Origin: Mesorhizobium sp. B2-8-5
Lineage (GTDB): Bacteria > Pseudomonadota > Alphaproteobacteria > Rhizobiales > Rhizobiaceae
DNA: 64,000 nt
Direction: 5' to 3'
Assembly: GCF_006440675.2 (NCBI RefSeq)
Contig: NZ_CP083951.1
Coordinates: 2,761,501-2,825,500 of the forward strand
Position numbers and translations under genes: made by a program. Below the pieces are notes generated by a model. The model was not told the origin of the DNA and made no database searches. It was given only the letters and a program-made list of their open reading frames with translations. Positions 22,425 to 43,615 of the stretch are shown piece after piece. Numbering within the stretch: position 1 is the stretch's first letter; every line of letters begins with the position of its first letter.

Positions 22425-22437
22425 GATTCTCCTCCCT

Positions 22438-23552: not shown

Positions 23553-23586
23553 AAAGAGGCCCGATCGCCGTGGAGAATTGAGGATC

Positions 23587-25531: not shown

Positions 25532-25538
25532 TGGCACG

Positions 25539-26347: not shown

Positions 26348-26358
26348 AGGACGGCTCC

Positions 26359-27126: not shown

Positions 27127-27172
27127 CCGGCGACCGCAAGAAGGCCAGGTCCAGATCAGAGGAGGATGAACC

Positions 27173-27949
27173 GTGTCAGGATCGCTTTCGGGAAAAGTCG
27201 CGGTCGTCACGGGCGCGGGGCGCGGCATCGGCGATGCCATCGCGGGCCGACTGATTGCCGACGGCGCAAAAGTCTTTGCGCTGGACAAAATGCTTCCAGA
27301 CGAGCCGCGCAGGGGCGTCACTTACGTCGAGACGGATGTGACCGATCCGGCCAGTGTGAGCGCTGCGTTCAAGGCCGTCGACGACAAAGCGGGTCAAGTC
27401 GACATCCTCGTCAGCAACGCCGGCATCCAGCGTGTCGGCCTGGTCGGCAAGATATCGTTCGCCGACTTCTCTTCGGTGATCGCCACCCACTTGCACGGCC
27501 TCTTCCTGTGCGCCTCGGAAGTCGTACCGCGCATGGTCGAGCGCGGCGCCGGCGGGGCGATCGTCAGCATCGCATCCACCGCCGCTTTCGTCGGCCTGCC
27601 GGGGCGGGGGCCTTACTGCGCCGCCAAGGCAGGCATTCTCGGACTGACGCGCGCGCTGTCGCTTGAAGTCGCGACCGCGGGCATAAGGGTCAATGCGGTG
27701 GCCCCCGGCTTCACGCGCACCAAGTTCATAGAGCAGGGTTTGAAAGATGGCTCCTTGCAGGAAGACTGGATGGTGGCCCGTGTACCGATGAAGCGGTTGG
27801 CGCGGACCGAGGAGATCGCCGAGGCCGTCCGATTTCTTGCTGGCGACGAGTCGTCCTACATGACGGGCCAAACGGTCGTGGTTGACGGTGGCTGGATCGT
27901 ACAAGGTATTCCCGAGGCGCCGACCTGGCTGCAAACGCCAGCCTCATGA
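27173..27949 (+). CDS. SDR-family oxidoreductase
   Basis: 258-aa short-chain dehydrogenase starting at GTG 27173, with GGAGG 8-12 nt upstream. TGAGRGIG (about 13-20), NAG, SIAST, YCAAK and end DESSYMTGQTVVVDGG are all present. The stop overlaps the ligase start (ATGA). Confidence 0.88.
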   Translation: MSGSLSGKVAVVTGAGRGIGDAIAGRLIADGAKVFALDKMLPDEPRRGVTYVETDVTDPASVSAAFKAVDDKAGQVDILVSNAGIQRVGLVGKISFADFSSVIATHLHGLFLCASEVVPRMVERGAGGAIVSIASTAAFVGLPGRGPYCAAKAGILGLTRALSLEVATAGIRVNAVAPGFTRTKFIEQGLKDGSLQEDWMVARVPMKRLARTEEIAEAVRFLAGDESSYMTGQTVVVDGGWIVQGIPEAPTWLQTPAS

Positions 27950-29472
27950 TGCCGGCAAAGCTAAATCTTGCGGAATATTGCATCGGCCGCGCGGCTGCGA
28001 CGAGTCCGGGCAAGACCGCGCTTCTTGTCGTGAGCGACGCCGACAGGCCGCAGGATGCCGAGCGTTGGACCTATGCGGCGCTCGATCTTGCCGTGCGCCG
28101 GGTGGCGGCAGGTCTTCTGGCGGAAGGTCTTTCGCCCCGCGATCGTATCGTGCTGCGGTTGCCGAACACGAGCGACTATGCCCTGCTGTTTCTTGGCGCG
28201 ATGGCGGCCGGCCTGGTGCCGGTTCCCATCTCGGCGCAACTCACCGGCAGCGAAACGGCGTTCCTTGTCGGAGATTCCGGCGCTGCGGCGATAGTCGAGA
28301 CATCGTCGCTGGCCTCCGTAACCGCTCCTTCCGCATGCAAGGTTCTGGATGACGCGGCCTTGATACGACTGAAAAATACAGCGGAGCCGGCTGGCTTTGC
28401 CGATACCGACGCCGAAGCACCGGCCTACATGATCTATACGTCGGGAACGTCCAGTCGGCCCAAAGGCGTCGTCCACGCGCACCGCACGGTTCTCGGACGA
28501 AAACCAATGCACATCGACTGGCAAGGCCTTTCGGCATCTGATGTCGTGCTGCATGCCGGCGCCTTCAACTGGAGCTATACGCTCGGTGTCGGACTCCTCG
28601 ACCCTTGGGCATGCGGCGCCACCGCGGTGCTCTACAACGGGCCAAACGACATCGCGGTCTGGCCGAAGCTTATCGATGCCGTGGGTGCAACGCTGTTTGC
28701 GGCGGTGCCTTCGCTGTATCGCCAGATGCTGAAATATTGCAGCTTGCAGCCAGGATGTCTGCCGATGCTTCGCCACGCGCTTGCCGCCGGCGAAGCGCTC
28801 AGCCCGGCGATCCTCCACGGCTGGCACGCCGCCACAGGCAAGCAACTGTATGAGGCTTTCGGGATGAGCGAATGCTCGACCTTCGTGTCCAATCATCCGG
28901 GCATGCCTGTCAGGCCGGGCAGTCCCGGCAAGCCGCAAGCCGGACGGCCGATCGCGGTGTTGCCGCTGGACGGCGGCGTGGAGCCCCTTGCTGCCGGCGA
29001 GACGGGTTTGCTTGCCATTCACCGCAGCGATCCCGGTCTGATGCTCGGCTATTGGCAGCGGCCCGAAGAGCAGCAGGCTGTGTTTCGCGGTGATTGGTTT
29101 GTCGGCGGCGATCTCGCTGCGTTCGATGGCGACGGCTATCTCTGGCATCGCGGGCGTGCCGACGACATCATGAATGCAGGGGGCTATCGCGTGTCGCCGC
29201 TGGAGGTCGAGGCCGCGCTGACCGGATGCGCGGGGGTTGCCGAGATTGCGGCGGCTGAGCATCATGTGCGGAGCGACGTTACCGTGATTGCCGTCTTTGT
29301 CGTGCGTGACCGAGACAGCAGAACCACAGCCGATGACATCATGGCGATCGCCGAGCGGCGCCTTGCCGCCTATAAACGGCCGAAGCAGGTGTTCTTCGTC
29401 CCGAGCTTGCCTCGCAATGCCAATGGGAAGCTCTTGAGGCGCCAGCTTTCATTGGTGGTGGCTGGCGGTTGA
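27946..29472 (+). CDS. AMP-dependent acyl-CoA synthetase/ligase
   Basis: 508-aa adenylate-forming enzyme. The P-loop-like motif YTSGTSSRPKG (about 160-170), A5 YEAFGMSECS, A7 GDLAAFDGDGYLWHRGRADD and the final catalytic Lys in LPRNANGKLLRR are all in order. It should activate a carboxylic acid to its CoA thioester. It resembles benzoate/acetate-type ligases, but the acid cannot be named. Last gene of its operon, convergent with the CaiB gene 22 nt away, which suggests that both feed a shared CoA-ester pool. Confidence 0.88.
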   Translation: MMPAKLNLAEYCIGRAAATSPGKTALLVVSDADRPQDAERWTYAALDLAVRRVAAGLLAEGLSPRDRIVLRLPNTSDYALLFLGAMAAGLVPVPISAQLTGSETAFLVGDSGAAAIVETSSLASVTAPSACKVLDDAALIRLKNTAEPAGFADTDAEAPAYMIYTSGTSSRPKGVVHAHRTVLGRKPMHIDWQGLSASDVVLHAGAFNWSYTLGVGLLDPWACGATAVLYNGPNDIAVWPKLIDAVGATLFAAVPSLYRQMLKYCSLQPGCLPMLRHALAAGEALSPAILHGWHAATGKQLYEAFGMSECSTFVSNHPGMPVRPGSPGKPQAGRPIAVLPLDGGVEPLAAGETGLLAIHRSDPGLMLGYWQRPEEQQAVFRGDWFVGGDLAAFDGDGYLWHRGRADDIMNAGGYRVSPLEVEAALTGCAGVAEIAAAEHHVRSDVTVIAVFVVRDRDSRTTADDIMAIAERRLAAYKRPKQVFFVPSLPRNANGKLLRRQLSLVVAGG

Positions 29473-29494: not shown

Positions 29495-30676
29495 TCAGCT
29501 TTCGGCTTTGGAGCTGGTGGCTGCAAAGCGGTCGAGCACCGCCTTCGTATCCGCGTCGAATGGACGTCCTGCATGGCGCACGCGGCCGGGCGTCTTCGAA
29601 AATCCTGCGACGACGTTTTGCATTGCGACGCCGTCAACCTGCGTGATCATGTTGCGGGCGCGATAATGCTCGTCGGCAAAAATATCCTTCATGTCGAGCA
29701 CCTTGGCGATGGCTGCGTCGACACGGCGGAACTCGCGGATCACTTCTTGCGAGTGTCGCGACTCCACCCAGTCGGCGACGTAGACCTCGAGCGCTTCGCG
29801 ATTGCGGCTGCGGCCCTGGAATGTCGAGAAGCGGTCGTCGCTGCCCAGACCAACCAGCGCCAGCACCCGTTTGGCGATCGAATCCGCCGAACTGGAAATC
29901 GCCACCCAGACGCCATCGGCGCATCGGTAAGTGCCGCGCGGCACCGTGTAGGGAATACCCGAGCCAAGCCGTGGCTGCAGATAGCCCATATGCGCATAAG
30001 CCGAGGGCAGCGGACCCATGATCTGGAACATCGAAGTCAGAAGGTTGACGTCGATCGTTTGTCCCTCACCGGTGCGCTCGGCGTGGCGGAGCGCGGCCAG
30101 CGTGGCGAAGGCGCCGACCAGGGCCGTCACCTCGTCGGTCAGCGCCACCGGCGGCAGCAGCGGCTGGCCGCCTGCCTCACCCAGCAGATTGGAAAATCCG
30201 CTCATCGCCTCGGCGATCGTCGCAAAGCCCGGGTGCAAGGCATAAGGCCCGTCCTGGCCGAAGCCGGTCACGCGCAGCACCACCATCTTCGGATTGCGCC
30301 GCTGCAATTCGTCCGGGCCGAAACCGAGCGCTTCGAGCTTGCCCGGGCGCATGTTCTCTATCAGCACGTCGGCGCCTTCGAGCAGCGACCAAAGATTGCG
30401 CTGCCCGCTCTCGGTTTTGAGATCGAGCGAGACGACCTGCTTGTTGCGGTTCACCAGCTTCCAGAAATACGAATCGGTCTCGTCCGGGCCGGTCCAGCCC
30501 ATGCGACGGGTCGGATCGCCGTTGGGACCTTCGACCTTGATCACTTCGGCGCCGTAGTCGGCCAGGTATCGCCCGGCACCCGGTCCGGCGACGACGGTGG
30601 CGAGTTCCACGACGCGTATGCCATCAAGAGGCCCGGGCGTCTCGCGCGCCAATTCGGGATCAGCCTTGTCCGTCAT
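29495..30676 (-). CDS. CaiB/BaiF-family (class III) CoA-transferase
   Basis: 393 aa from ATG 30676 (GGAG in the preceding GGCGGCGGAGAGC); 30706 is an alternative adding 10 residues. Signatures: PLDGIRVVELATVVAGPGAG, GAEVIKVEGPNGDPTRR, NRNKQVVSLDLK, and the likely catalytic Asp in PPVALTDEVTAL (about 175). These enzymes move CoA between dicarboxylic or hydroxy acids. The gene follows a MaoC hydratase in the 32805-29495 operon, so a pair making and hydrating an unsaturated C4-C5 CoA ester is plausible (malate, citramalate or itaconate CoA-transferase-like). Confidence 0.85.
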   Translation of the reverse strand: MTDKADPELARETPGPLDGIRVVELATVVAGPGAGRYLADYGAEVIKVEGPNGDPTRRMGWTGPDETDSYFWKLVNRNKQVVSLDLKTESGQRNLWSLLEGADVLIENMRPGKLEALGFGPDELQRRNPKMVVLRVTGFGQDGPYALHPGFATIAEAMSGFSNLLGEAGGQPLLPPVALTDEVTALVGAFATLAALRHAERTGEGQTIDVNLLTSMFQIMGPLPSAYAHMGYLQPRLGSGIPYTVPRGTYRCADGVWVAISSSADSIAKRVLALVGLGSDDRFSTFQGRSRNREALEVYVADWVESRHSQEVIREFRRVDAAIAKVLDMKDIFADEHYRARNMITQVDGVAMQNVVAGFSKTPGRVRHAGRPFDADTKAVLDRFAATSSKAES

Positions 30677-30736
30677 GCGATCGCTCTCCGCCGCCGACAC
30701 TTCCATGCAAATGCGTTTTGACCCATGCGTTGCGCA

Positions 30737-31264
30737 TCAGGTTTCGGCCGCCGCCGAAGCCGTCCGAGCGCGACCAGCCGGCCGGCCGGCGCGCATCGGC
30801 AAAAGCACGGCGCGGATGAATGTGCAGACCTTTGCCCGGTCCTGGTTGAAGCCATCGGTGCGAACGGTGAGAATGCCTTCGCCGGGGCGGGAGGCGGATG
30901 GCCGCGTCTCAAGTATCTCGGTCTGGCCGTAGAGCGTGTCGCCATGGAACAGCGGCTTGATATGGCGAAGTTCGCTGACGCCGAGATTGGCGATGGCGCG
31001 GCCGGAAATGTCGGGCACGCTCATCCCCAGCAGCAGCGAATAGATGTAGGTGCCGACAACGATGTTGCGGCCCTCGGCCATCTCCGTCTCCGCGAAGCGC
31101 CGGTCGATATGCAGTGGGCTGGCGGCCATCGTCAAAAGGCAGAACAGATGGTTGTCCGCCTCCGTGATGGTCTTGCCCGGCCAATGTTCGAAAACATCGC
31201 CGGTCCGGTAGTCGTCGAGATACCCACCGAACCTTCCGTCGCGCGCAGAGTGAACTTTCGCCAT
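30737..31264 (-). CDS. MaoC-family (R)-specific enoyl-CoA hydratase
   Basis: 175-aa hotdog protein. The catalytic Asp/His-type segment is GKTITEADNHLFCLLT with MAASPLHID (about 32-54), followed by GMSVPDISGRAIANLG and PLFHGDTLY. The VPDIS...AIANLG segment is close to mesaconyl-CoA/itaconyl-CoA hydratases. It lies 1 nt downstream of the lipoyl gene and upstream of the CaiB gene. Hydration of mesaconyl- or itaconyl-type CoA is an inference. Confidence 0.82.
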   Translation of the reverse strand: MAKVHSARDGRFGGYLDDYRTGDVFEHWPGKTITEADNHLFCLLTMAASPLHIDRRFAETEMAEGRNIVVGTYIYSLLLGMSVPDISGRAIANLGVSELRHIKPLFHGDTLYGQTEILETRPSASRPGEGILTVRTDGFNQDRAKVCTFIRAVLLPMRAGRPAGRARTASAAAET

Positions 31265-31265
31265 T

Positions 31266-31502
31266 TCAGCCCTCGAGCACCAAAGTCGGCGCGCCGGTCC
31301 GGACGTCGTCGCCGACCTTGATCAGGATTTCCGCAACGGTGCCGGCGAACGGGGACGGGATTTCTACCTGGGTCTTGTCGGTCTCCACCACGAACAGGGT
31401 CTGGCCTTCGTTGACCTTGGCACCGACCTGGACCTGAATTTCGTTGATCACCACCTCGTCGACCGCGTCGCCGACTTTGGGCATCTTGAGCGTGGAACGC
31501 AT
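31266..31502 (-). CDS. Stand-alone lipoyl-domain protein
   Basis: 78-aa single biotinyl/lipoyl domain with no other domain. The modification site is in VVETDKTQVEIPSP with K43; the Asp-Lys context favours lipoylation over biotin (which uses Met-Lys-Met). It covers a whole lipoyl fold, MRSTLKMPKVGDAVDE to APTLVLEG, and is not a fragment of an E2: it has its own start, and the next gene follows after 1 nt. It probably accepts the acyl group from the E1 encoded at 35630-37668. No E2 core or E3 is visible in the window. Confidence 0.86.
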   Translation of the reverse strand: MRSTLKMPKVGDAVDEVVINEIQVQVGAKVNEGQTLFVVETDKTQVEIPSPFAGTVAEILIKVGDDVRTGAPTLVLEG

Positions 31503-31638
31503 TATCTGATCTCCATCAAAACATTGCCAAAAGGAGGATTTTCGCCGATCGAAACTTTGCCCTGGAAACGGAAGACGGCGTGCAAACCGCGACCGCCGGC
31601 CGTAATTCCCAGCAAAATCGGAATGGCTTTCCTCCCTA

Positions 31639-32805
31639 TCACAACGCCTTGCCCGTGCTGCTATCGAAAAGGTGGACCCGCTCGCCGTCGACGACGAGTT
31701 CGAGGCTGGTTTCGCGTGCCGGCACGCGGCTGGCTCCGACGCGCAGCACGAGAAGCCGGGCGTCGATACGGACCAACTCCGCCGGATCGACAACCGCGCC
31801 GCGGGCGTAGTCGTCGGCTGTCCGGATGATGACCGAGGTGCTTGCGGGCGATACCGCGATGAACGATTCCGGCTCCAGTTGTTCGACCAATTCGACCTTG
31901 GCCGGAATGCCGGCACCGCTGCCGGCAGGCTGCCAGGACAAATGCTCGGGCCTGATGCCAAGTATGACGGTGCCGCCGGCCGCGAGCCCAGGTTCTTTCA
32001 CCTTTGGTCGCACGCTGACCTGCCGATCGCCGATAGATACAACGAGAGCATCGGCTCGCGTCTCGATGACCTTTGCTTCGAGGAAGTTCATGGCAGGGCT
32101 GCCGATGAAGCCGGCGACGAATATGTTGGCCGGTGCGTGGTACAGCGCGTGCGGCGTATCGTATTGTTGCAGCGTTCCGCGCGAGAATACGGCGACGCGG
32201 CTGCCGAGCGTCATCGCCTCGACCTGGTCGTGGGTAACGTGGATCGTCGTGACGCCAAGCCTTGTGTGCAGACGCGACAGCTCGGCCCGCAATTGCACGC
32301 GCAGCTTGGCGTCGAGGTTGGAGAGCGGCTCGTCAAGCAGGAACGCTTCCGGATTGCGGACGATGGCGCGGCCCATGGCGACGCGCTGACGCTGGCCGCC
32401 TGAGAGCTCGCGCGGCTTGCGGTCGAGCAACTCCGACAGGTCGAGGATGCGGGCGGCTTCGGCAACCCGTTTGTCGATCTCCGACTTCGGCGTCTTGCGC
32501 AGTTCCAGCGCGAAAGCGATATTCTCGCGCACGGTCATCTGGGGGTAAAGCGCATAGTTCTGGAAAACCATCGCGATGTCGCGGTCGCGTGGCGACACGT
32601 CGTTCATGGTCTTGCCATTGATGCTGATCTCTCCCGACGTGACCGATTCAAGCCCGGCGATCATTCTCAGCAATGTGGATTTTCCGCAGCCGGAAGGTCC
32701 GACGAAGACAACAAATTCGCCGTCGCGTATTTCCAGGTTGACATCCTTCAGGGCCTGCACCGGGCCGTAGAGCTTACCAACCTTGCGAAGACCGATCGAC
32801 CCCAT
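31639..32805 (-). CDS. ABC transporter ATPase, UgpC/MalK type
   Basis: 388-aa ATPase: GPSGCGKST (about 38-46), LSGGQRQRVAMGRA, AFLLDEPLSNLDAKLR, switch His in VTHDQVEA, then a C-terminal TOBE/OB regulatory part (VILGIRPEHL). Start ATG 32805 (MGSIGLRKVGKLYG) is chosen because all further upstream codons are unrelated. No permease genes lie next to it. The only permeases lacking an ATPase in this window are at 43616-45363, and both loci share operator motif B. Confidence 0.9.
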   Translation of the reverse strand: MGSIGLRKVGKLYGPVQALKDVNLEIRDGEFVVFVGPSGCGKSTLLRMIAGLESVTSGEISINGKTMNDVSPRDRDIAMVFQNYALYPQMTVRENIAFALELRKTPKSEIDKRVAEAARILDLSELLDRKPRELSGGQRQRVAMGRAIVRNPEAFLLDEPLSNLDAKLRVQLRAELSRLHTRLGVTTIHVTHDQVEAMTLGSRVAVFSRGTLQQYDTPHALYHAPANIFVAGFIGSPAMNFLEAKVIETRADALVVSIGDRQVSVRPKVKEPGLAAGGTVILGIRPEHLSWQPAGSGAGIPAKVELVEQLEPESFIAVSPASTSVIIRTADDYARGAVVDPAELVRIDARLLVLRVGASRVPARETSLELVVDGERVHLFDSSTGKAL

Positions 32806-32953
32806 CCAGAAACTCTTCGTCGCCTCAAAATTGGTGCCGCGATCCCGGTTGGGACCGCGCGCCGATGATGCCGAACCGGTACCTGAAACAAAGGCCGAAA
32901 AATACCCTTGGACCCGTGAACGGAAGTCGAGACTAGGCAATCGCGAAAACCAT

Positions 32954-32989
32954 GTCAATCGTTTGACTAATGGCAATCAATCGGTTGAC
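32954..32989. promoter_or_regulatory. Tandem LacI-type operators (B1, B2)
   Basis: B1 is GTCAATCGTTTGAC (32954-32967) and B2 is ATCAATCGGTTGAC (32976-32989). Both fit GTCAANCGNTTGAC with a central CG, and the centres are 22 bp apart, about two helical turns. They lie between the divergent ATPase operon (start 32805) and dehydratase operon (start 33058), so one repressor could control both. A third related site is at 42052-42065. The cognate regulator is most likely the LacI protein at 40028-41071. Confidence 0.72.
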
Positions 32990-33057
32990 CGAGCAAAAAT
33001 GCGTCGTTATGGTGGCGGCAAATTCCCGGCTCGGCCGGGCCCTTGGGAGGGGATGGA

Positions 33058-34191
33058 ATGCCTAGTCATTCTACTGTTGTCGACGTCAGCGTAGCCACCA
33101 TTCAGGCTCAGCTGCCGGCGCCGGTGATTTTCGGCGACTGGGTCATGAAGATGCGTGAATTCGCCACGGTGCGAATACGCACGTCGTCGGGGCACGAGGG
33201 GTGGGCGTTCACGCTGACGCGCGACGGCGCCGTCGCCGAGCAGATCCGCAAGAGCATCGCCCCGGTCTATGCCGGCACCGACATCGCCGACCGCGAAGCG
33301 ACCTTCCGGACCGCGAAGGGACGCACCTACGGTTCGCATAGCGCCGGCGTTGGCCTGCGGGCGCTTTCGATCGTCGACCTCGCCGCCTGGGACGCGGCCG
33401 CGAAGATCGCCGACAAGTCGATCGCCGAGTTCCTCGGCGGCAAGGTGAAGCCGATGCCTGCAACCTGCATCATCGGCTATCCGCCCGCGATCATGCCGCC
33501 GGACAAGACCGGCGCGCAGGCGGCTGACTTCTACGCCAAAGGATGGCGGCGCTTCAAAGCCCCGATGGCGGCTACCTGGGAGCTGTCGGCCGCGCGGCTG
33601 CGCGCGATACGCAAGGCGGCGCCCGATGCCTGGCTCGGCACCGATCTTGTCTGGATGTTCAAGACCGTCGACGAGGCAGCCGCCTACGCCGACAGCATCG
33701 CCGACATCGACATGGGCTGCATCGAAGACATTTTCCCGCCCGGCAATGCCGGCATGCTCGCGGCGCTCCGCAAGCGCGTTCCCATGCCGATCTGGCAGGG
33801 CGATGAACAGGGTGGCTCCTACTACCCGGAAGCCCTGATCATGGCTGGGTCCGTCGATCGCGTCCGCGTCGACCTGACCTGCATGGGGGGTATCACCGGC
33901 GGCCGCGCCGTCATCGACGAGTGCCTCGCGGCGGGCGTCGATTTCGGCCCGCACATGTTCCCGCATACCCACAGTCAGGTGTTCAGCGCCTGGGGCTTCG
34001 ACGACAAGCCGATCGAATGGGGCGTGCCGTGGACAGGGGTGCACCCCTATGACGATGCCCTCGCGCAGCCGCAGATCATGGCAGGCGGACTGATGAAGCC
34101 GCTGCCGCAGGGGCCGGGATTCGGTAAGATGATCGACAAGGCGTGGTGCCTGAGCCAGCCGCACCAGGATCCAGACAACATCCTGCAGTAG
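33058..34191 (+). CDS. Enolase-superfamily dehydratase (region B)
   Basis: 377-aa mandelate racemase-type enzyme. Metal ligands appear in LGTDLVWM, CIEDIFPP and WQGDEQGG; a catalytic His lies in FPHTHSQ. The usual KxK is reduced to FKAP (about 161-164), as in some subgroups that rely on the His side. ATG 33058 (GGGAGGGG upstream) is preferred over TTG 33043. It opens the plus operon 33058-40031. A sugar-acid dehydratase making a 2-keto-3-deoxy acid is expected. Confidence 0.83.
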   Translation: MPSHSTVVDVSVATIQAQLPAPVIFGDWVMKMREFATVRIRTSSGHEGWAFTLTRDGAVAEQIRKSIAPVYAGTDIADREATFRTAKGRTYGSHSAGVGLRALSIVDLAAWDAAAKIADKSIAEFLGGKVKPMPATCIIGYPPAIMPPDKTGAQAADFYAKGWRRFKAPMAATWELSAARLRAIRKAAPDAWLGTDLVWMFKTVDEAAAYADSIADIDMGCIEDIFPPGNAGMLAALRKRVPMPIWQGDEQGGSYYPEALIMAGSVDRVRVDLTCMGGITGGRAVIDECLAAGVDFGPHMFPHTHSQVFSAWGFDDKPIEWGVPWTGVHPYDDALAQPQIMAGGLMKPLPQGPGFGKMIDKAWCLSQPHQDPDNILQ

Positions 34192-34219
34192 GAACGCACC
34201 GGTACAGGCGAGAGCTGTC

Positions 34220-35020
34220 ATGGCGGACGATGAGATCACAGTACCCGCGAACTATACGGCAGGTCTTTTCGACATTTCCGGCCGCGTCGCCGTCGTCACC
34301 GGCGCAGGCAGCGGGCTGGGCGCGGCGATCGCGATCGGTTATGCGCAACTCGGCGTCACTGTCGTGCTCGCCGATATCAACGCCGCGGGAATGGCGGCGA
34401 CGCTGGCGACGATCACCGAGCAGGGCGGCAAAGCCGTCGCTGCCGAACTCGACGTCACCAAGCGGGATCGCTGCTTCGACCTCGCCAGGAAAGTCAAAGC
34501 CGACCATGGCAGCGTCGATATTCTGGTGAACAGCGCCGGCTCCGCCTTCCGCAGTCCGGCCGAGGAGTTTCCGGAGGACAAGTTCAACTTCATCCTCGAT
34601 CTCAACCTCAAGGGCACCTATTTCTGCTGCCAGGCTTTCGGCAATGTGATGCTGGCGCAGGGCAGGGGCAGCATTATCAATCTCGCCTCGATCGGCTCGT
34701 TCAACGCTTATCCCTGGGCCAGCGCCTATCTGGCCTCCAAGGGCGGCGTGCTGCAGATGACCAAGGCACTGGCGCTGGAGTGGCGAGACCGCGGCGTGCG
34801 CGTCAACGGCATCGGTCCGACGCTGATGGAATCGCCGCTCACCAAGGCCGCGGCTTCCCGCTCGTCGATCACGGCGGATTTCATCAAGGCGCGCATGCTG
34901 CGGCCCCGGCTCGGGCTGCCGCGCGAGTTGATCGGAACGGCCGTGTTTCTGGCGAGCGATGCGTCCGAACTCGTCACCGGACACATCGTCATGTGCGACG
35001 ACGGATATCTAACGGCATGA
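34220..35020 (+). CDS. SDR-family oxidoreductase
   Basis: 266-aa short-chain dehydrogenase: TGAGSGLG (about 28-35), NSAG, SLAS-type Ser in NLASIGS, YLASK, and end DASELVTGHIVMCDDG. The gluconate 5-dehydrogenase-like layout suggests oxidation of a keto-deoxy sugar acid. It follows the dehydratase by 28 nt. Confidence 0.87.
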   Translation: MADDEITVPANYTAGLFDISGRVAVVTGAGSGLGAAIAIGYAQLGVTVVLADINAAGMAATLATITEQGGKAVAAELDVTKRDRCFDLARKVKADHGSVDILVNSAGSAFRSPAEEFPEDKFNFILDLNLKGTYFCCQAFGNVMLAQGRGSIINLASIGSFNAYPWASAYLASKGGVLQMTKALALEWRDRGVRVNGIGPTLMESPLTKAAASRSSITADFIKARMLRPRLGLPRELIGTAVFLASDASELVTGHIVMCDDGYLTA

Positions 35021-35059
35021 ACACCGAACGCATGGGCCGACCACCGGCCGGAGGCTGAC

Positions 35060-35533
35060 TTGGCAAGGATCACCAAAGCCCATCATACCGGATTCACCGT
35101 GCGCTCGCTCGAACGCTCGATCGCCTTCTATCGCGACATATTGGGCTTCGAGCTGGCCTTCCAATGGAACCCGCAGGCCGAATACATCGGTGAGCTTGTC
35201 GGCTATCCGAGCGTGGATCTGCACGGCGCCATTCTTCGGCTGCCGGGCACGGATGTATGCCTCGAGCTGCTCGAATACCGCAATATCGAACAGGTCCGGG
35301 TCGACATGCGCAACGGCAACATCGGCAATGGCCACATTGCGTTCAACGTCGACGACCTGATGAGCCTCTACGAGGAGCTGGTTGCCAAAGGCGTGAAATC
35401 GGTCTCCGCCCCGGTCACGCCGACGATCGGTCCGAACAAGGGCGGCAAGGCGGTTTATCTCATCGATCCAGACGGTTTCCGCGTCGAACTGATCCAATCG
35501 GCGCAAGCCTTCGGGAGCTATAAGCCGGAGTGA
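35060..35533 (+). CDS. VOC-family protein
   Basis: 157 aa from TTG 35060, with GGAGG about 5-9 nt upstream. Metal-binding pattern: His in AHHTGFTV, Glu in CLELLEYR, His in NGHIAFNV, Glu in RVELIQS. Closely resembles the VOC protein at 25539 and lactoylglutathione lyase/epimerase folds. It could be an epimerase for a CoA ester (methylmalonyl-CoA epimerase is in this superfamily) or a keto-acid enzyme. Confidence 0.82.
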   Translation: MARITKAHHTGFTVRSLERSIAFYRDILGFELAFQWNPQAEYIGELVGYPSVDLHGAILRLPGTDVCLELLEYRNIEQVRVDMRNGNIGNGHIAFNVDDLMSLYEELVAKGVKSVSAPVTPTIGPNKGGKAVYLIDPDGFRVELIQSAQAFGSYKPE

Positions 35534-35544
35534 TCTGGACCAAA

Positions 35545-35560
35545 TAAAAACGTTTCCAAA
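35545..35560. promoter_or_regulatory. Candidate LacI-family operator (A6)
   Basis: TAAAAACGTTTCCAAA; its reverse complement begins TTTGGAAACGTTT exactly like A3 at 15333. It lies between the VOC gene and E1 beta, 70 nt before the E1 start. It suggests an internal promoter controlled by the region-A LacI protein (14159-15187) or a related repressor. Confidence 0.5.
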
Positions 35561-35629
35561 TTTCGTTGCCTGCGCTAGCTTCGCAAGCCTGCATCAACCA
35601 TCCGACCTGCGTATTGGGAGAATTTCGCC

Positions 35630-36637
35630 TTGGCTAAGATATGGGTTCGGCAAGCGGTCCTCAGGGCCCTCGATGATGCGATGACGGAAGATCCGACCGT
35701 CATCATGATGGGGGAAGACATTGCGGCCGCGGGCGGCCCGTTCAAGGTGACGGAGGGTCTGCTCGCCGTGCACGGTCCGCAGCGTGTCATCGACACGCCG
35801 ATCTCGGAAATGGCCTTCATGGGCGCCGCCGTCGGTGCCGCTGTCTGCGGGCTCAAGCCGATCGTCGAGATGATGTTCATCGAATTCATCGGCGTGGCTC
35901 TCGACCAATTGACGACGCAGGCGGCGACGATGCGCTATCTTTCGCGCGGCAAACTGACGACGCCGCTGGTGGTGCGCGCTTCGGCCGGCGCCGGGCAGGG
36001 TTTTGGCTGCCAGCATTCGCAGATGCTCGACCACTGGTTCCGCGGTACCCCGGGCCTCAAGGTGTGCGTCACCAGCAACGCCCGCACGACCTACGGCTTG
36101 CTGCGCTCGGCGATCGAGGATCCGGATCCGGTGGTCGTGCTCGAACCACGCATTCTCTACGCTGAACGCGAGGAATACGAATTCGACAGCAGCTACCGCA
36201 TCTCGCTCGGCAGGGCCGAGATCGTCAAGGCGGGCAAGGATGCGACGCTGCTCGCCTGCGGGGCGATGGTGCGGGTGGCCAAGGAAGCCGCCGAAAACAG
36301 CAGCGCCGACATCGAGGTGATCGATATGCTGACGCTGTGGCCGTGGGACCGCGATACGATCATGGAATCGGTTTCAAGAACCGGTCGTCTGGTGACGCTC
36401 GAAGAGGCCACCGCCGGAAACGGCTGGGGCGCCGAAGTGGTGTCTTCCGTCGCTGTCGAGGCCTTCGGTTCGCTGAAGGCGCCGCCGCACCGCATCACCT
36501 TGCCCGATGCGCCGGTGCCCTACAGCGGCAAGCTGGAAGCGCGCTTTCTGCCCAGCGCGGCCTACGTCGCCGAGCAGGTGTCCGCCCTGGTGTCGACCAA
36601 CAAAACGCCAATGCCCTGGTGGAGGAACGCAGCATGA
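35630..36637 (+). CDS. 2-oxoacid dehydrogenase E1 component, beta subunit
   Basis: 335-aa transketolase-like E1 beta of the pyruvate/acetoin/branched-chain family. VIMMGEDIAA (about 25-34), DTPISEMAFMGAAVGAA (catalytic-site Glu) and the C-terminal transketolase domain (EVIDMLTLWPWD) are present. TTG 35630 has GGGAGAA upstream. It makes the alpha2-beta2 E1 with the next gene. The beta-before-alpha order is the reverse of most pdhAB and acoAB operons. Confidence 0.9.
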   Translation: MAKIWVRQAVLRALDDAMTEDPTVIMMGEDIAAAGGPFKVTEGLLAVHGPQRVIDTPISEMAFMGAAVGAAVCGLKPIVEMMFIEFIGVALDQLTTQAATMRYLSRGKLTTPLVVRASAGAGQGFGCQHSQMLDHWFRGTPGLKVCVTSNARTTYGLLRSAIEDPDPVVVLEPRILYAEREEYEFDSSYRISLGRAEIVKAGKDATLLACGAMVRVAKEAAENSSADIEVIDMLTLWPWDRDTIMESVSRTGRLVTLEEATAGNGWGAEVVSSVAVEAFGSLKAPPHRITLPDAPVPYSGKLEARFLPSAAYVAEQVSALVSTNKTPMPWWRNAA

Positions 36638-37668
36638 CGCTCTCCAATTCCAACTCGCCGCTGGCGCGCCGGGAAGCCCTCGACGACAGGCTGGAGCAGC
36701 TTCGCCGGATGATCGAGATCCGCTTCGTCGAGGAACGCATTCAGAAGCTGTTCGCGGAAGGCCACGTGCGTGGCAGCACGCATCTGGCGAGCGGCCAGGA
36801 AGGCGTGTCGGTCGGCATCGCACGCTCGATCGACCCCGACGACATCGTCACCTGCACTTATCGCGGCCACGGCCATGCGTTGGCATTGGGCCTAACGCCG
36901 GCGGGCGTCATCGGCGAGATCTGCGGTCGTGTCATCGGCTGTGCCGGCGGGGTTGGCGGATCGATGCACCTTGTCGAGCCGGCGATCGGACTGCTGCCCA
37001 CGGCGGCCATCATCGGCGCCGGCCTGCCGATCGCCTGCGGCGCCGCGCTGGCGGCGCGCGCGCGCGGCACGGACCGCGTCGCGGTCGCCATCTTCGGCGA
37101 CGGCTCGGCCAATATCGGGGCCTTCCATGAATCGCTGAATTTCGCCGCGATCCAGAAGCTGCCCGTGGTCTTCGTCTGCGAAAACAATCTGTACGGCGAA
37201 TATACGCGCATCCAGCTGTCGACGCCGGTCGAGGACATCGCGATACGCGCCGCCAGCTACAACATGCCAGGGGTCATCGTCGACGGGCAGGACGCCGACA
37301 AGGTAGCGGAAGCGATGGCGACGGCAGTTGCGCGTGCACGCCGCGGGGAAGGACCTTCGCTGGTCGAGATGAAGACATACCGCTATTCCGGCCATTCCCG
37401 CTCGGACCCGGCGACCTACCGGCCGGCCGGCGAACTCGACGCATGGCTGAAGCGCGACCCGATCGACATCTTCGCCGAACGCCTGACCGCCGAGACGCTG
37501 TTGGCGGCGGGCGGCCTCGATTCGCTCAAGACCGAAGTGCGCGAGGCTGTCGAAACGGCAACGGCGGAGGTGCTGGATTCGCCGGCGCCGGAACTCGGTG
37601 AGATCATGGCGCATGTCGGCGCTTACTCTGCAGGCGGCGATCAGCGCCATTTGTTTTGGTCGAATTGA
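36634..37668 (+). CDS. 2-oxoacid dehydrogenase E1 component, alpha subunit
   Basis: 344-aa thiamine diphosphate-dependent subunit. The ThDP motif runs from FGDGSANIGAFHESLN (GDG at residue 155) to CENN. YRGHGHALALG and GGVGGSMHLV are close to acetoin/pyruvate E1 alpha, and the phosphorylation-loop-like YRYSGHSRSDP is present. The start overlaps E1 beta (ATGA). It decarboxylates a 2-oxo acid and reductively acylates a lipoyl domain, probably the free one at 31266. The oxo acid is unknown. Confidence 0.9.
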   Translation: MTLSNSNSPLARREALDDRLEQLRRMIEIRFVEERIQKLFAEGHVRGSTHLASGQEGVSVGIARSIDPDDIVTCTYRGHGHALALGLTPAGVIGEICGRVIGCAGGVGGSMHLVEPAIGLLPTAAIIGAGLPIACGAALAARARGTDRVAVAIFGDGSANIGAFHESLNFAAIQKLPVVFVCENNLYGEYTRIQLSTPVEDIAIRAASYNMPGVIVDGQDADKVAEAMATAVARARRGEGPSLVEMKTYRYSGHSRSDPATYRPAGELDAWLKRDPIDIFAERLTAETLLAAGGLDSLKTEVREAVETATAEVLDSPAPELGEIMAHVGAYSAGGDQRHLFWSN

Positions 37669-37806
37669 TCTGGCCGTTTTGGTGACGCAGGTCGCTGCAA
37701 AGCAGCCTGCGTCGGGAGGAATTTCTGACCGCACGCCGCCGGAGACGATATCCGGCGGCGATTTTATCGACTGCTGGCGCCCCTTGTCGGCGCAGGCCGG
37801 AGCAAA

Positions 37807-38817
37807 ATGGGCACGCGTTCCGACATAGGCTTCGACGGCCCGTTTTTCGACGATCTCGCGATCGGCGACCGCTTCGACAGCGCGCCGACGATGCGGCTGA
37901 CGGAAGGTCTGGCCGCCGTCCACCACGCAATCGTCGGCGGACGCCTGCGGTTGGCCTTCGATGCCAGGCTGTCCGAGGCCGTGACGGGGCAGGCATCGCC
38001 GTTTGCCGCGCCGGCTTTCGTGTGGGATATCGCCATAGGGCAATCGACGCTTGTCACCCAACGCGCCGTCGCGAACCTGTTCTATCGTGGTTTGGTGTTC
38101 CGCCGCGCACCGGCGATCGGCGACAGCCTGACGACGTCCACGACCGTCATCGGCTTGCGTCCGGCATCCGCAAAACCTGGTCGCCCACCGCGCGGACTTG
38201 TTGCCATGCGCATCGCGACGGTCGATCAGAAGGGGCGCCCGATCCTCGATTTCTGCCGTTGCGCCATGCTGCCCGCGCGCTCGGCCGATGCTGTGGCGGC
38301 GCAAGGCCAGACGGAGCTGCCGAAATCCGATTTCACCCAGACGCAACTGCTGGAAGCGGTATCGGACTGGAATCTTGACGCTTTTCGCGATGCCACGCAC
38401 GGTCCGCATTTTGATGACCTCGAAGCGGGTTCCGTGCACGATCTTGCAGGAGGCGACGTCGTCAGCAGCGCTCCGGAACTGGCCAGGCTGACCATGAATC
38501 TGGCGGTCATCCATCACGACCGTATCGCGGCAGGCGGACAGCGCCTGGTCTATGGCGGCCACACGATCGGCATCGCCGCCGCACAAATCACGCGCGTCTT
38601 CCCCGGCCTGGTGACCATCCTTGCCTGGCATGACTGCGACCATCTCGGCCCGGTGCATGAGGGCGAGACGCTGCATTCGCAGGTCATCGTCGAACGCTGC
38701 CAGCCGCTGCCTGGCGGCGGCGGACTGGCGCATCTTCGCTGCAAGGTCCGGTCGACCGACGGTGCCAGTGAGACGTCGGACGTGCTCGACTGGCGGTTGG
38801 TAGGGCTGTTTGCATGA
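37807..38817 (+). CDS. mch: Mesaconyl-CoA hydratase-like double-hotdog MaoC protein
   Basis: 336 aa, the length of mesaconyl-C1-CoA hydratase (beta-methylmalyl-CoA dehydratase). The N-terminal part FFDDLAIGDRFDSAP, LTEGLAAVHHAIVGGRLRL and AVANLFYRGLVFRRAPAIGD follows the Mch pattern. A second hotdog half (FDDLEAGSVHDLAGG to VLDWRLVGLF) is fused to it. Its stop overlaps the Mct-like start by 4 nt. In the 3-hydroxypropionate bi-cycle Mch interconverts beta-methylmalyl-CoA and mesaconyl-C1-CoA. The pairing with Mct supports a similar C5-CoA reaction here. Confidence 0.78.
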   Translation: MGTRSDIGFDGPFFDDLAIGDRFDSAPTMRLTEGLAAVHHAIVGGRLRLAFDARLSEAVTGQASPFAAPAFVWDIAIGQSTLVTQRAVANLFYRGLVFRRAPAIGDSLTTSTTVIGLRPASAKPGRPPRGLVAMRIATVDQKGRPILDFCRCAMLPARSADAVAAQGQTELPKSDFTQTQLLEAVSDWNLDAFRDATHGPHFDDLEAGSVHDLAGGDVVSSAPELARLTMNLAVIHHDRIAAGGQRLVYGGHTIGIAAAQITRVFPGLVTILAWHDCDHLGPVHEGETLHSQVIVERCQPLPGGGGLAHLRCKVRSTDGASETSDVLDWRLVGLFA

Positions 38818-40031
38818 CGCGAGCCATCCTGAGCGGCATGTCCGTGGTCGAAGGCTCGGCCTTCGTCGCGGCGCCGCTTGGAGGAATGACGCTGGCGCAG
38901 CTTGGCGCCGATGTCATCCGCTATGACCAAATCGGTGGCGGACTGGACTATCGCCGATGGCCGGTGACGGATAGCGGACAAAGCCTGTTCTGGGCCGGCA
39001 TGAACAAGGGCAAGCGCTCGATCCAGATCGACCTGCGTTCCGAGGAAGGGCAGGAGATCGTCGCCGCGCTGATAACCAGGCCCGGCACTGATCAAGGCCT
39101 CTATCTTACCAATTTCGCGGCGCGCGGAGCATTGTCCTACGAGGCATTGAAGGCACGGCGGGCCGATCTCATCATGGTCGCCTTGAGCGGCAACGCCGAC
39201 GGGTCGAGCGAGGTGGACTATACCGTCAATGTCGCCACGGGGTTCCCCGACATCACAGGTTTGCCTGGGTCTTGCGGCCCCACCAATAGCGTGCTGCCGG
39301 CCTGGGATATCGCGATGGGCGAACTCGCCGCCGTTGGTCTGCTTGCCGCCGACAGACACCGCAGCCGCACAGGCGAGGGTTCGCTGGTAAAGCTCGCCTT
39401 GTCCGACGTCGCTTTTGCCACCGTCGGACATCTGGGGCGTATCGGGCAGGCCGAACGCGGCGGCAGCGCGGCGAAGGACGGCAATTTCCTGTTTGGCGCG
39501 TTCGGGCGCGACTTTGCCACAAACGATGGTCGGAGGGTTATGGTCGTTGCGTTGACGGAACGGCAGTGGAAGTCGCTGGTCCAGGCCACAGGTATCGATG
39601 CCAAGGCGCTGGCCGCGGCGACCGGCGCCGATCTTGACAGCGAGGGAGGGCGCTACGCTGCCCGCCATGCCATCGCGGACGCGATAGCGCCGTGGTTCGC
39701 GGCGCGTCGTTTCGACGAGGCGACGAAGGACCTGTCAGCCGCGGGGGTCTCCTGGGGGCCATATCAGAGTTTCCAGCAACTCGTCGCCGAAGACCCACGC
39801 TGCTCGCCGGCCAATCCGCTGTTCTCACCAGTCGATACGCCAGGCATCGGGACGGTGCTGACGCCCGCGTCGCCGCTCTACTTTTCGGTGGCGGATCGGC
39901 TGCCGGCCATGCGTGCGCCGCTGCTCGGGGAACATACCGACGAGATCCTGGCGGGTCTGGGCATCAGTGATGGCGAGATCGGCCGCCTGCACGACCGCGG
40001 CGTCGTCGCAGGAGCCGAGCGCCGCCTTTAG
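38814..40031 (+). CDS. mct: Mesaconyl-CoA C1:C4 CoA-transferase-like CaiB protein
   Basis: 405 aa, a CaiB/BaiF fold. It matches what I recall of Chloroflexus Mct along its length: VVEGSAFVAAPLGGMTLAQL at the N-terminus, IGGGLDYRRWPVT, FWAGMNKGKRSIQID, VLPAWDIAMGELAA (catalytic Asp) and GIGTVLTPASPL near the end. Mct moves CoA from C1 to C4 of mesaconate within one molecule. It is coupled to the Mch-like gene and converges on the LacI gene, with the stop codons overlapping by 4 nt. The assignment rests on motif memory, not on an alignment run. Confidence 0.82.
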   Translation: MTRAILSGMSVVEGSAFVAAPLGGMTLAQLGADVIRYDQIGGGLDYRRWPVTDSGQSLFWAGMNKGKRSIQIDLRSEEGQEIVAALITRPGTDQGLYLTNFAARGALSYEALKARRADLIMVALSGNADGSSEVDYTVNVATGFPDITGLPGSCGPTNSVLPAWDIAMGELAAVGLLAADRHRSRTGEGSLVKLALSDVAFATVGHLGRIGQAERGGSAAKDGNFLFGAFGRDFATNDGRRVMVVALTERQWKSLVQATGIDAKALAAATGADLDSEGGRYAARHAIADAIAPWFAARRFDEATKDLSAAGVSWGPYQSFQQLVAEDPRCSPANPLFSPVDTPGIGTVLTPASPLYFSVADRLPAMRAPLLGEHTDEILAGLGISDGEIGRLHDRGVVAGAERRL

Positions 40032-41071
40032 GACTTTATCTTTATCTTTGGCGGCGGCCCAACGGATTCGCGCATCACCAGTTGCGGCGCAATGTCGATC
40101 ACGACGTCCTGCGGCTCGCGGCCATGGATCATGGCGTCAAGTTCGACCACGGCGCGGGCGCCCATCTCGCTCAGCGGCGTGACGATGGCGGTCAGCGGCG
40201 GCGCGGTGAAGATGGCGTCTTCGCCGTCCAGAGAGACAACCGAAAGGTCACGCGGCACCTGGATGCCGCGTACGCGCGCCGCTGCCAGCGCGCCGATGCC
40301 GACCAGCATGTTGAAGGCGAAGATGCCGGTCGGCGGCGCCGCCTCGCTCATGATGTGGTGCAGGGCGTCGTAGCCGCCGCGCCGCGACACCGGCGCATTG
40401 GCGACGATCGCAGGCCCGAGGCCGGCAGCCTTGCAGGTTTCGATGAAGCCAATATGGCGGCGTCGCGAGGTATCGAGTTCCGGCATCGAACCGATGAAGC
40501 CGAGCCTCGTGTGTCCAGCCTCTATGAGCGTGCGCGCCGCCAGCCGGCCCGAGGCATGGTCGTCCACGGTGACGCTTCTGCCGATCGTGGAACGCCGGTT
40601 GACGAAGACGTGCGGCACCGGATTGTTCGCGATCGCCTCGATCATTTCGCGGCTCTCAGCCGTCACCGCGATGATCAGGCCATCGATGCGCCGCTCGCTG
40701 ACCAGTCTCAGATAGGCCGCCGTCGACCGCTGCTCGTCCGCAACCTCGGCGATCAGCATGACATAGCCGGCTTTTTCAGCCTGCCGCATCGCACCGCGCA
40801 CGGTCTCTGCGTAGACCGGGTTGGTCAGGTCGGGCAGCAGGATGCCAAGAGCGCCGGTGCGCTGGGTGCGCAGATTGCGCGCCAGCGCATGCGGCCGGTA
40901 GTTGACGCGCCCTGCCTCGTCCAGGATAGCCTGACGGGTCTGCGCGCGCACGCTGATGCCGCCATTGTTCAGCACTTTGGACACCGTCGAAACGTCAACG
41001 CCGACTGCGCGCGCTATATCTTTCAGCGTGGCACGTGCAGAGGGAAGCGCAGCTGGTGTCGATGTTTTCAC
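40028..41071 (-). CDS. LacI-family transcriptional regulator (sugar-acid region B)
   Basis: 347 aa from GTG 41071: the start overlaps the SDR stop (GTGA) and GGAAGG lies upstream. Helix-turn-helix ATLKDIARAVGVDVSTVSKV is at about 14-33, then the hinge and a type I binding domain (GALGILLPDLTNPVYAETV). The C-terminus ends in an odd Lys/Ile repeat (KIKIKS). It sits between the Mch-Mct operon and the importer operon. Motif-B operators upstream of both are its likely targets. Confidence 0.9.
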   Translation of the reverse strand: MKTSTPAALPSARATLKDIARAVGVDVSTVSKVLNNGGISVRAQTRQAILDEAGRVNYRPHALARNLRTQRTGALGILLPDLTNPVYAETVRGAMRQAEKAGYVMLIAEVADEQRSTAAYLRLVSERRIDGLIIAVTAESREMIEAIANNPVPHVFVNRRSTIGRSVTVDDHASGRLAARTLIEAGHTRLGFIGSMPELDTSRRRHIGFIETCKAAGLGPAIVANAPVSRRGGYDALHHIMSEAAPPTGIFAFNMLVGIGALAAARVRGIQVPRDLSVVSLDGEDAIFTAPPLTAIVTPLSEMGARAVVELDAMIHGREPQDVVIDIAPQLVMRESVGPPPKIKIKS

Positions 41072-41868
41072 GAGACCTTCCCGTACCTCTCTAGCAGAGC
41101 TGCGTCCGGCTCGTAACGATAGCAGCGGGAGGTCAGGCCGCCATCGACCGCGAGAGACTGGCCGGTGACGAAGGAGGCTTCCGACGAGATAAGCCATGAC
41201 ACCGCCGCCGCTATCTCCCCCGGTTCGCCTATGCGTTCCAGCGGATGCTGGATGGACATTTCCCGTTCGGCGCGGGTGCTGTCCGGGCTATCGCGGATAA
41301 CCCGCTGCACGAGCGATGTGCGCACCGCGCCGGGCGCCACTGCATTGGCTCGAATGCCCACCGGTCCGTATTCGACCGCGATGTAGCGGGTCAGCGCGTC
41401 AATGCCGGCCTTGGCGACGTCATAAGCCGCCCACATGTTGAAGGCGGAGCGGCCATGCACCGACGAGACGTTGACGATCGACCCGGCGACGCGGTCTCTC
41501 ACCCATGTCTGGATCGCTTCCGAAGAGCCCCAGAAATGCGACATCAAATTGACCGCAAAGACGCGCTCGACATCGGCGTCTTTCGGTTCATGCAGATTGC
41601 CCATCAGAGCGATACCGACATTGTTGACCCAGCCTCGCAGGGGCGCGAGCTTTTCGGCGGCCTCTCGCGCTTTCTTCAGCACGGCACGGTCGGAGGCGTC
41701 GCCGCAAAGGCAGCCATGTCCCTTGCCCAGCTTCTTGCCCAGGTCAGATGCCGTTTCAGGGTTGATTTCAAGGCCGACGACGTTCCATCCATCGGCCGCC
41801 AGACGAACGGCTATGGCATGGCCGATGCCGTCGCCGGCTCCCGTTACGACAACGCTTCCGAGACTCAT
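41068..41868 (-). CDS. SDR-family oxidoreductase
   Basis: 266-aa short-chain dehydrogenase: TGAGDGIG (about 9-16), NNVG, Ser in NVSSVHG, YDVAK, and end SEASFVTGQSLAVDGG. ATG 41868 has GGGAGG 6 nt upstream. It is transcribed ahead of, and overlaps, the LacI gene, so regulator and enzyme are co-expressed. Divergent from the importer operon at 42147. Confidence 0.87.
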   Translation of the reverse strand: MSLGSVVVTGAGDGIGHAIAVRLAADGWNVVGLEINPETASDLGKKLGKGHGCLCGDASDRAVLKKAREAAEKLAPLRGWVNNVGIALMGNLHEPKDADVERVFAVNLMSHFWGSSEAIQTWVRDRVAGSIVNVSSVHGRSAFNMWAAYDVAKAGIDALTRYIAVEYGPVGIRANAVAPGAVRTSLVQRVIRDSPDSTRAEREMSIQHPLERIGEPGEIAAAVSWLISSEASFVTGQSLAVDGGLTSRCYRYEPDAALLERYGKVS

Positions 41869-42051
41869 CGAGACCTCCCATTGGATCCGGGCGGGCGGCT
41901 CGGCTTGTCGACGCGCCATGGGTTTGTTGGTCGGCTTCAAGGGTCGTGCAGGACACACAACTAGAAGCTGCCCCCAACGCCTGTCAAGCGCATGGTTCCG
42001 GACCGTGCTCGGTTGCACTACAGCTCTCAATTATCACGCCGAATATGTTTG

Positions 42052-42065
42052 AGCAATCGATTGAC
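42052..42065. promoter_or_regulatory. LacI-type operator (B3)
   Basis: AGCAATCGATTGAC; the core CAATCGATTG (42054-42063) is a perfect palindrome and fits the B1/B2 pattern. It lies 81 nt upstream of the binding-protein start and within the divergent interval before the SDR-LacI pair, consistent with control of both and autoregulation. Confidence 0.65.
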
Positions 42066-43583: not shown

Positions 43584-43615
43584 TCGGCTCACGATCGTCG
43601 GTTTGGAAGTGAGTG

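Follow-up and report, generated by a model that had tools for sequence, protein, structure and literature searches.

A sugar-uptake unit of Mesorhizobium with E1, a free lipoyl protein and an Mct-family CoA-transferase: a possible route of sugar acids into CoA metabolism

We analysed a stretch of 64,000 nucleotides (the window) from the 6.46 Mb genome of the soil bacterium Mesorhizobium sp. B2-8-5 (contig NZ_CP083951.1), in which a unit at 29495 to ~46262 brings together genes for sugar uptake, sugar-acid conversion, a 2-oxoacid dehydrogenase E1 and CoA-ester enzymes. Family scans of the products back the gene kinds and coordinates that a preliminary description had given for 29495-40031. The ABC ATPase at 31639-32805 was missing from its gene list, and the unit is wider than first reported, with a LacI regulator, a short-chain dehydrogenase/reductase (SDR), a sugar-binding protein, permeases and an SMP-30 lactonase continuing beyond 40031 to ~46262. 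The minus-strand group consists of the ABC ATPase (E), a lipoyl protein (D), a MaoC protein (C) and a CaiB protein (B), and the plus-strand group of F, the SDR G, the VOC protein H, E1 beta (I), E1 alpha (J), K and L, in which K and L, as well as E1 beta and alpha, overlap by four bases. Compared genomes carry G-numbers (G349, G360 and so on) and compared loci L-numbers (L015, L121 and so on), and locus maps were built from tblastn matches.

Gene L (38814..40031, +) encodes an Mct-family intramolecular CoA-transferase, whose nearest solved chains are the two Mct structures (7xkg from Roseiflexus, 527.6 bits; 8apq from Chloroflexus, 497.7 bits), and it is 62% identical to a homologue in a Roseiflexus metagenome-assembled genome (MAG). 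The available text of PMC9813914 and PMC9196870 assigns roles in Mct to the catalytic Asp165, Arg47, Tyr136, Leu43 (Leu or Ile in intramolecular transferases) and other residues, and nearly all of them are kept, so that the Mct-like identity proposed for this gene is upheld. In the alignment, L retains Asp165, Arg47, Tyr136, Leu43, Arg75, Asn100, Phe101, Arg104, Ser132 and Glu133 (D165, R48, Y136 and L44 in the numbering of the window protein), and the kept carboxylate-binding residues would imply a dicarboxylic mono-CoA ester as substrate.

A tree of 105 rows was made by a quick search with SH-aLRT support only; its rows were cut at the first stop, the frameshifted G419 copy was left out, and the rows L012 and L120 are one gene. 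For the residue alignment and the 8-kb locus map, joined genome maps replace L013, L014 and L093-L103, and L001 was left out. In this tree 98 Mct-type rows split from seven SmtAB/CaiB rows (support 100), and six Mesorhizobium rows group (100) inside a 27-row clade (99), in which K adjoins L in 21 of the 27 loci. Judged by its sequence, L is a member of the intramolecular Mct family, in a clade that lies apart from the enzymes of the 3-hydroxypropionate bi-cycle. L shares with the Mct of the bi-cycle the family, the length, Asp165, Arg47, Tyr136, the Leu43 cork and other site residues, but differs in its clade, in a Gly for Arg314', in a score below the equivalog cut-off and in its place in a sugar unit. 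Within 8 kb of the window L, mcl, smtAB, meh and mch gave no match at the thresholds of the map, and the pattern of the bi-cycle loci was therefore not found.

Gene K (37807..38817, +) encodes a double-hotdog protein, which is Rv0216-like and a distant relative of Mch. Its best solved relative is Rv0216 (2bi0, 316.4 bits), followed by Mch (8hgn, 86.5 bits); Rv0216 and Mch (8hgn, 4e3e) both match K over nearly the whole length, but K is far closer to Rv0216, and its identity to Mch is 25-28%. The title of the structure paper on Rv0216 reportedly calls it a conserved hypothetical protein. K matched no Pfam family at E 0.001, and so not the Mch model PF19315, which is carried by some listed homologues of K. 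The motif of K is that of Mch: the Asn and His before YGGH are kept (LTMNLAVIHHD...LVYGGH in K versus LYQNTARVHFN...IVYGGH in Mch), and all 30 K rows show this motif, as do 8 of the 12 Mch rows, the other four having been missed by the search pattern (the pattern for Meh missed 2 of 14 rows). The claim of an Mch-like gene thus stands for a distant kinship and a kept motif, and not for Mch proper.

The unit contains both E1 subunits and a lipoyl domain of a 2-oxoacid dehydrogenase complex. E1 beta (I; 35630..36637, +; PF02779/PF02780) and E1 alpha (J; 36634..37668, +; PF00676, 260.5 bits) are TPP-dependent and match pyruvate dehydrogenase (PDH) models under their cut-offs (E1 beta subfamily, 305.1 bits vs 321; E1 alpha, 318.2 vs 393.85). 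The lipoyl domain comes as a free protein of 78 aa (D; 31266..31502, -; PF00364, 75.3 bits) with the motif ETDKTQVEIPSP, and its copies in the six other E1 loci are 83-90% identical.

At E 1e-90 or better, E1 beta was found in 7 of 146 genomes of the genus and in 1 of 385 sampled genomes of the class, which is the window's own genome. In all seven E1 genomes D, I, J and L occur together (L is frameshifted in G419), and K is present in six. The joint presence of E1, lipoyl, Mch-like and Mct-like genes, whose absence from other genomes would have counted against the linked scheme, is therefore conserved among those genomes of the genus that have this E1.

These genes lie below two different upper modules. 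Beside the unit, the window carries a type-1 upper module, with an enolase-family protein, an SMP-30 protein and an SDR at 20393..23187 (-) and, at 23578..29472 (+), a tartrate dehydrogenase (TIGR02089, 525.8 bits, over the cut-off of 470.4), an amidohydrolase, a VOC protein (25449-26018), two SDRs (26359-27126 and 27173-27949) and an AMP ligase (27946-29472). The enolase-family/SMP-30/SDR order of 20393-23187 also exists in G306, G340, G419, G397, G015, G825 and G261. In the first four of these, the type-1 genes are continued by those for the lipoyl protein, E1 beta and E1 alpha and then by K (missing in G397) and L; G349 has only type 2, as in the window unit (32 kb compared); and in the window and G360 a type-1 module adjoins a type-2 unit, the D-I-J-K-L set being present once. 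These five genes thus behave as a lower module fed by two different sugar modules. Between genomes of two families, copies of the type-1 enolase-family protein share 93-98% identity, against 59-89% for its neighbours. The AMP ligase of G360 (joined map 6943-8293) and L of G419 (joined map 18440-19700) appear frameshifted, by error or decay.

The linkage may reach beyond the genus. We compared the exact size of the longest contig of each protein cluster among the best matches in the protein searches (120 rows for K, 119 of 120 for L and 119 of 120 for J, one J row having no contig). The lists share 14 sizes for J/K, 9 for J/L and 27 for K/L, six being common to all three, against an expectation of ~0.9 per list pair with one list jittered by 5%. 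For example, J, K and L of a 147076-base contig are all named Devosia, which indirectly suggests the same J-K-L linkage in Devosia and others.

The regulator M (40028..41197, -; PF00356 and PF13377; 75-79% in G349 and G360) is of the LacI family, and the true start of its gene is probably near 41060. Two LacI-type palindromes 22 bp apart (32954..32989) lie in the divergent promoter of E and F, where GTCAANCGNTTGAC occurs at 32954 with no mismatch and at 32976 with one, and a third (42052..42065; two mismatches) precedes the transporter in the promoter of the SDR and the sugar-binding protein. In the whole window GTCAANCGNTTGAC occurs seven times at two or fewer mismatches, only modestly above chance (mean of 2.55 in shuffles; seven reached in 3 of 100), and it is position and conservation that carry the argument. 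The E/F promoter pair has identical sequence and spacing in G349 and G360, and the palindrome before the transporter has one counterpart in G349 and two in G360, while the compared stretches of G306 and G419 contain no such palindrome, and each of those from G340 and G397 has a single, unrelated match with two mismatches. The shared operators proposed earlier are thus found as GTCAANCGNTTGAC-type sites at both promoters. They probably tie sugar transport, F, E1, K and L into one regulon, and M would be the protein that binds them, the unit probably being controlled by its own LacI protein. The joined map of G349 shows one more LacI-type palindrome with two mismatches at 8090, to the left of its type-2 unit and within a stretch that matches another LacI-type gene.

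The uptake genes comprise the ATPase E (31639..32805, -), of MalK type (PF00005, 128.6 bits; PF17912, 50.8 bits; 74-77% in G349 and G360), a sugar-binding protein (42147..43583, +; PF01547, 81.8 bits; sugar ABC transporter 5iai, 122.4 bits) and two permeases (43613..45363, +), one at 43613-44533 and one in the 3' part of the open reading frame (ORF) 43510-45363, both with PF00528. They are followed by a lactonase of the SMP-30/gluconolactonase family (44994..46262, +), with PF08450 at residues 138-384 (72.9 bits) and a doubtful N-terminal part of the ORF. The SDR at 41068..42030 (-) is glucose-1-dehydrogenase-like (PF13561, 179.4 bits; PRK07231, 191.2 vs a cut-off of 215), with an overlong ORF start and 80-88% identity in G349 and G360. 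The SDR G (34220..35020, +) is KduD/gluconate-5-dehydrogenase-like, with the matching models below their cut-offs, and the VOC protein H (35060..35533, +; PF00903, 61.7 bits) is 36% identical to the type-1 VOC protein. Elsewhere in the window, the genes for a phenol/alkene hydroxylase-type subunit and, after it, a ferredoxin-type reductase (50112-53072) are unrelated to the unit.

Gene F (33058..34191, +; ORF 33043-34191, ATG at 33058) encodes an enolase-superfamily protein and putative sugar-acid dehydratase (PF13378, 89.6 bits; 79-80% in G349 and G360), for which no match at 1e-60 was found on plasmids or in 296 other sampled genomes of the order. In an alignment of F with 3toy, read by eye, F has counterparts of the metal-ligand acids, of the Asp/His pair and of the first Lys in the KxK motif, but Pro in place of the second Lys, so that the dehydration by F stays putative.

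Oxidative non-phosphorylative sugar routes include the Weimberg, Dahms and 2,4-diketo routes. Like them, the unit has a transporter, a sugar-dehydrogenase-like SDR, an SMP-30 lactonase, an enolase-family protein and a second SDR; unlike them, it has E1/lipoyl, K and L where an aldolase, a semialdehyde dehydrogenase or an FAH-type hydrolase would be expected; the scanned products of 29495-46262 include none of these. With no matching lower genes among those scanned, a simple Weimberg or Dahms route was rejected.

From the gene content, the operator-like sites, the conservation and the family and active-site residues, we infer the reactions of the unit, their order and their substrates as follows. 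At somewhat less than an even chance, this is a sugar-catabolic unit in which the product of E1 and the lipoyl protein, a short dicarboxyl-CoA, is dehydrated by K before L shifts the CoA to its other carboxyl. An imported sugar would be converted to a lactone by the SDR and the lactone opened by SMP-30; F would dehydrate the sugar acid to a 2-keto-3-deoxy acid, which the SDR G and the VOC protein H would process further. E1 (I/J) with D would oxidatively decarboxylate the 2-oxo acid, leaving an acyl-lipoyl group from which the E2/E3 of another complex would form a CoA ester bearing a second carboxylate. K would turn this 3-hydroxyacyl-CoA into an enoyl-CoA of the mesaconyl-C1-CoA type, L would carry the CoA from C1 to the far carboxyl at C4, and acetyl-CoA or a relative and a 2-oxo acid would then be released with the help of a hydratase and a CitE-type lyase whose genes lie outside the unit.

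In general form, HOOC-CO-CHR-CHOH-COOH would be converted by E1 to 2-R-malyl-CoA, by K to 2-R-fumaryl-C1-CoA and by L to the C4 ester. The intermediate is predicted to be branched or substituted, because a CoA shift matters only for an asymmetric diacid (R = H is degenerate). The scheme of the preliminary description would likewise need such an intermediate and is not supported as written, since an unbranched 4-hydroxy-2-oxoglutarate route would leave the CoA migration idle, and for the same reason an unbranched pentarate leading to malyl-CoA was rejected as a full account. With R = CH3, the series would be beta-methylmalyl-, mesaconyl-C1- and mesaconyl-C4-CoA, for example from 3-methyl-4-hydroxy-2-oxoglutarate to beta-methylmalyl-CoA; if mesaconyl-CoA is formed, the sugar acid would be 3-C-branched or the branch made by an upstream enzyme. 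That in Mesorhizobium and relatives a branched-chain sugar, or one rearranged to a branched acid, enters in this way, through a beta-methylmalyl-CoA-type ester to citramalyl-CoA, as a carbohydrate entry into half of the 3-hydroxypropionate bi-cycle, is in our estimate unlikely. Schemes for aldarates, apiose, aceric acid and 2-C-methylerythritol were considered by reasoning only, and none accounted for every gene.

A number of observations weigh against the proposed pathway. Its main weakness is the substrate: we know of no common sugar that yields the branched 2-oxo acid, and the structural neighbours give no evidence, since those in the PDB for F (best 72.4 bits) and for both binding proteins point to no substrate and the type-1 enolase has no PDB match at 1e-60. 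An E2 catalytic domain was not found near the E1 sets in any of the seven loci, where searches with three of the four E2 proteins of the genome matched the lipoyl part only; the four PF00198 (E2) places of the genome all lie outside the window, so that of the proposed E1/lipoyl decarboxylation E1 and the lipoyl domain are present but no E2 is nearby. By its sequence, K is only a distant relative of Mch. L scores 522 bits against TIGR04253 (2-methylfumaryl-CoA isomerase), under the equivalog cut-off of 725, and has lost Arg314' of the second subunit (G311 in the window), a position which is R in 10 of the 12 loci with Mch and Mcl and G in L086 and L089. Among other Mesorhizobium copies of L, Phe101 or Arg75 vary, G397 has Pro at the Leu43 position (44) and Tyr at Arg104, and G419 is frameshifted; G397 also lacks K. 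The parts can be separated as well: G015, G825 and G261, which belong to a different family, carry a type-1 module but no tartrate dehydrogenase, E1, lipoyl protein or K, and in G015 and G825 the AMP ligase is followed by a divergent Mct-like gene, again with no E1.

The steps after L are not accounted for by the unit either. The MaoC-family protein C (30737..31264, -) is RipB/Ich-like, far under the RipB_Ich cut-off (134.8 bits vs 340), and in all three copies its motif LTMAASPLHID has Ala five residues before His, where relatives have the catalytic Asn/Asp. It may not be a normal hydratase, and hydration by it is doubtful. The family III CoA-transferase B, of CaiB/BaiF type (29495..30706, -; PF02515, 363.7 bits), has succinate-glutarate CoA-transferase as its best NCBIfam model (214.9 bits, under the cut-off of 750) and is present among the seven loci only in the window, G349 and G360; B and H are left unexplained by the scheme. 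As noted before, no CitE-type lyase exists in the unit, nor is there one in the window, but the genome has six HpcH/CitE genes in other places. One of them adjoins an Ich-like MaoC gene with intact Asn (169.8 vs 375 and 135.7 vs 340 bits, both under the curated cut-offs), and this pair could supply hydration and cleavage. The itaconate/methylsuccinate clusters (ict, ich, ccl, mcd, msi), as far as described in the available text of PMC12290011, likewise have CaiB and Ich-like MaoC proteins beside C5-CoA enzymes, but here C lacks Asn/Asp, no CitE/Ccl is found in the window and no acyl-CoA dehydrogenase matched within 8 kb of L; an itaconate cluster was rejected on the score and residues of C. 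Overall, the earlier interpretation is supported in part, for the Mct family and the co-occurrence, and is not supported for a true Mch, with hydration by C doubtful.

K-L pairs occur widely. K adjoins L in 42 of 98 mapped loci, and Mch and Mcl are found instead in 12; many loci are short, so absences in the 8-kb map partly reflect lack of sequence. A CitE-type lyase other than Mcl occurs in 10 of the 98 loci, 8 of them with K. It lies ~2 kb or nearer to the K-L pair in L015, L019, L029, L038, L039, L041, L047 and L052, mostly actinobacterial MAGs, and in these eight loci Mch, Mcl and SmtAB gave no match within 8 kb. Judged by gene order, the set of K, L and CitE may be the heterotrophic equivalent of Mch-Mct-Mcl.

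E1 types were found in 11 of the 98 loci, 7 of which are from Mesorhizobium. In L121 (G063; 6740-15102), the gene for an OGDH-like E1 is divergently oriented to an operon that encodes Mct-like, Meh-like and CitE-type proteins and an acyl-CoA dehydrogenase; together they form a compact candidate route that would lead from a 2-oxo acid by way of mesaconyl-CoA. On a plasmid of Azospirillum brasilense, L104 (5448-13200) combines a TRAP transporter, an OGDH-like E1, an acyl-CoA dehydrogenase, LysR, an SDR and an Mct-like gene. In L059 and L061 (alphaproteobacterial MAGs) an Mct-like gene is accompanied by genes for E1 alpha and beta and for an acyl-CoA dehydrogenase. By analogy, this suggests a recurring logic: decarboxylation of a 2-oxo acid would give a C5-dicarboxyl-CoA, which is then desaturated, and after the CoA shift by Mct the ester would be hydrated and cleaved. 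K would take the place of the dehydrogenase in Mesorhizobium, since the sugar-derived ester already has a hydroxyl. Since such contexts are few, they are a parallel and not proof.

The unit and its order of steps could also serve another short dicarboxyl-CoA, hydroxylated or hydroxymethyl-substituted, without formation of mesaconate, which we regard as possible though on the unlikely side. Such an ester would suit the separate clade of L, its lost Arg314' and the just 25-28% identity of K to Mch, and common sugars yield unbranched or hydroxylated acids; yet the window L retains the carboxylate-binding Arg47 and Tyr136 as well as the Leu43 cork and is 63-67% identical to L in L015, L019 and L029, where K-L adjoins the CitE-type lyase. 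On these three short contigs no match to F, SMP-30 or E1 was found.

Two linked but separate functions are also conceivable, a sugar-acid pathway completed by other enzymes, with E1 as a pyruvate or similar dehydrogenase, and a K-L module (its lyase encoded elsewhere) for C5-CoA esters or for glyoxylate/propionyl-CoA, which would be co-regulated without shared intermediates. E1 is missing within 8 kb in 36 of the 42 K-L loci (many on short contigs), which also counts against the proposed pathway, and a match to F, type-1 enolase or SMP-30 is missing within that distance in 39 of the 42; type-1 modules occur without E1 and K, and the E1 subunits match PDH models best, albeit below cut-off. Lipoyl, E1 and L nevertheless lie together below two upper modules in all seven genomes, shared contig sizes elsewhere connect E1 alpha with K or L, and one operator type stands at both promoters; we consider separate functions quite unlikely. 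That E1 and the lipoyl protein cleave an alpha-hydroxyketone or a diketone to acyl-CoA and an aldehyde, like acetoin dehydrogenase, seems very unlikely to us: the SDR and the VOC protein could supply a diketone and some close E1 homologues are named 'acetoin:2,6-dichlorophenolindophenol oxidoreductase subunit alpha', but others are named pyruvate dehydrogenase and the curated models rank the E1 subunits nearest PDH.

In the open-access literature, searched by titles and abstract starts with subscription journals mostly outside its scope, no publication joining these enzymes into a pathway was found, in agreement with the preliminary description, which knew of no described pathway coupling them. 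Each enzyme kind is known, and the combination with its free lipoyl protein is new to us. The intramolecular CoA transferase is described from one carbon-fixation cycle in the available text of PMC9813914 and PMC9196870. Here the Mct family appears in a sugar unit of a heterotroph, and many K-L pairs have none of the other genes of the cycle in reach. As the name '2-methylfumaryl-CoA isomerase' occurs in surveys of carbon fixation, such genes could mislead if used as a marker. If the proposed pathway is true, sugar acids would enter CoA metabolism by oxidative decarboxylation instead of aldol cleavage, and a free lipoyl protein would stand in for a dedicated E2.

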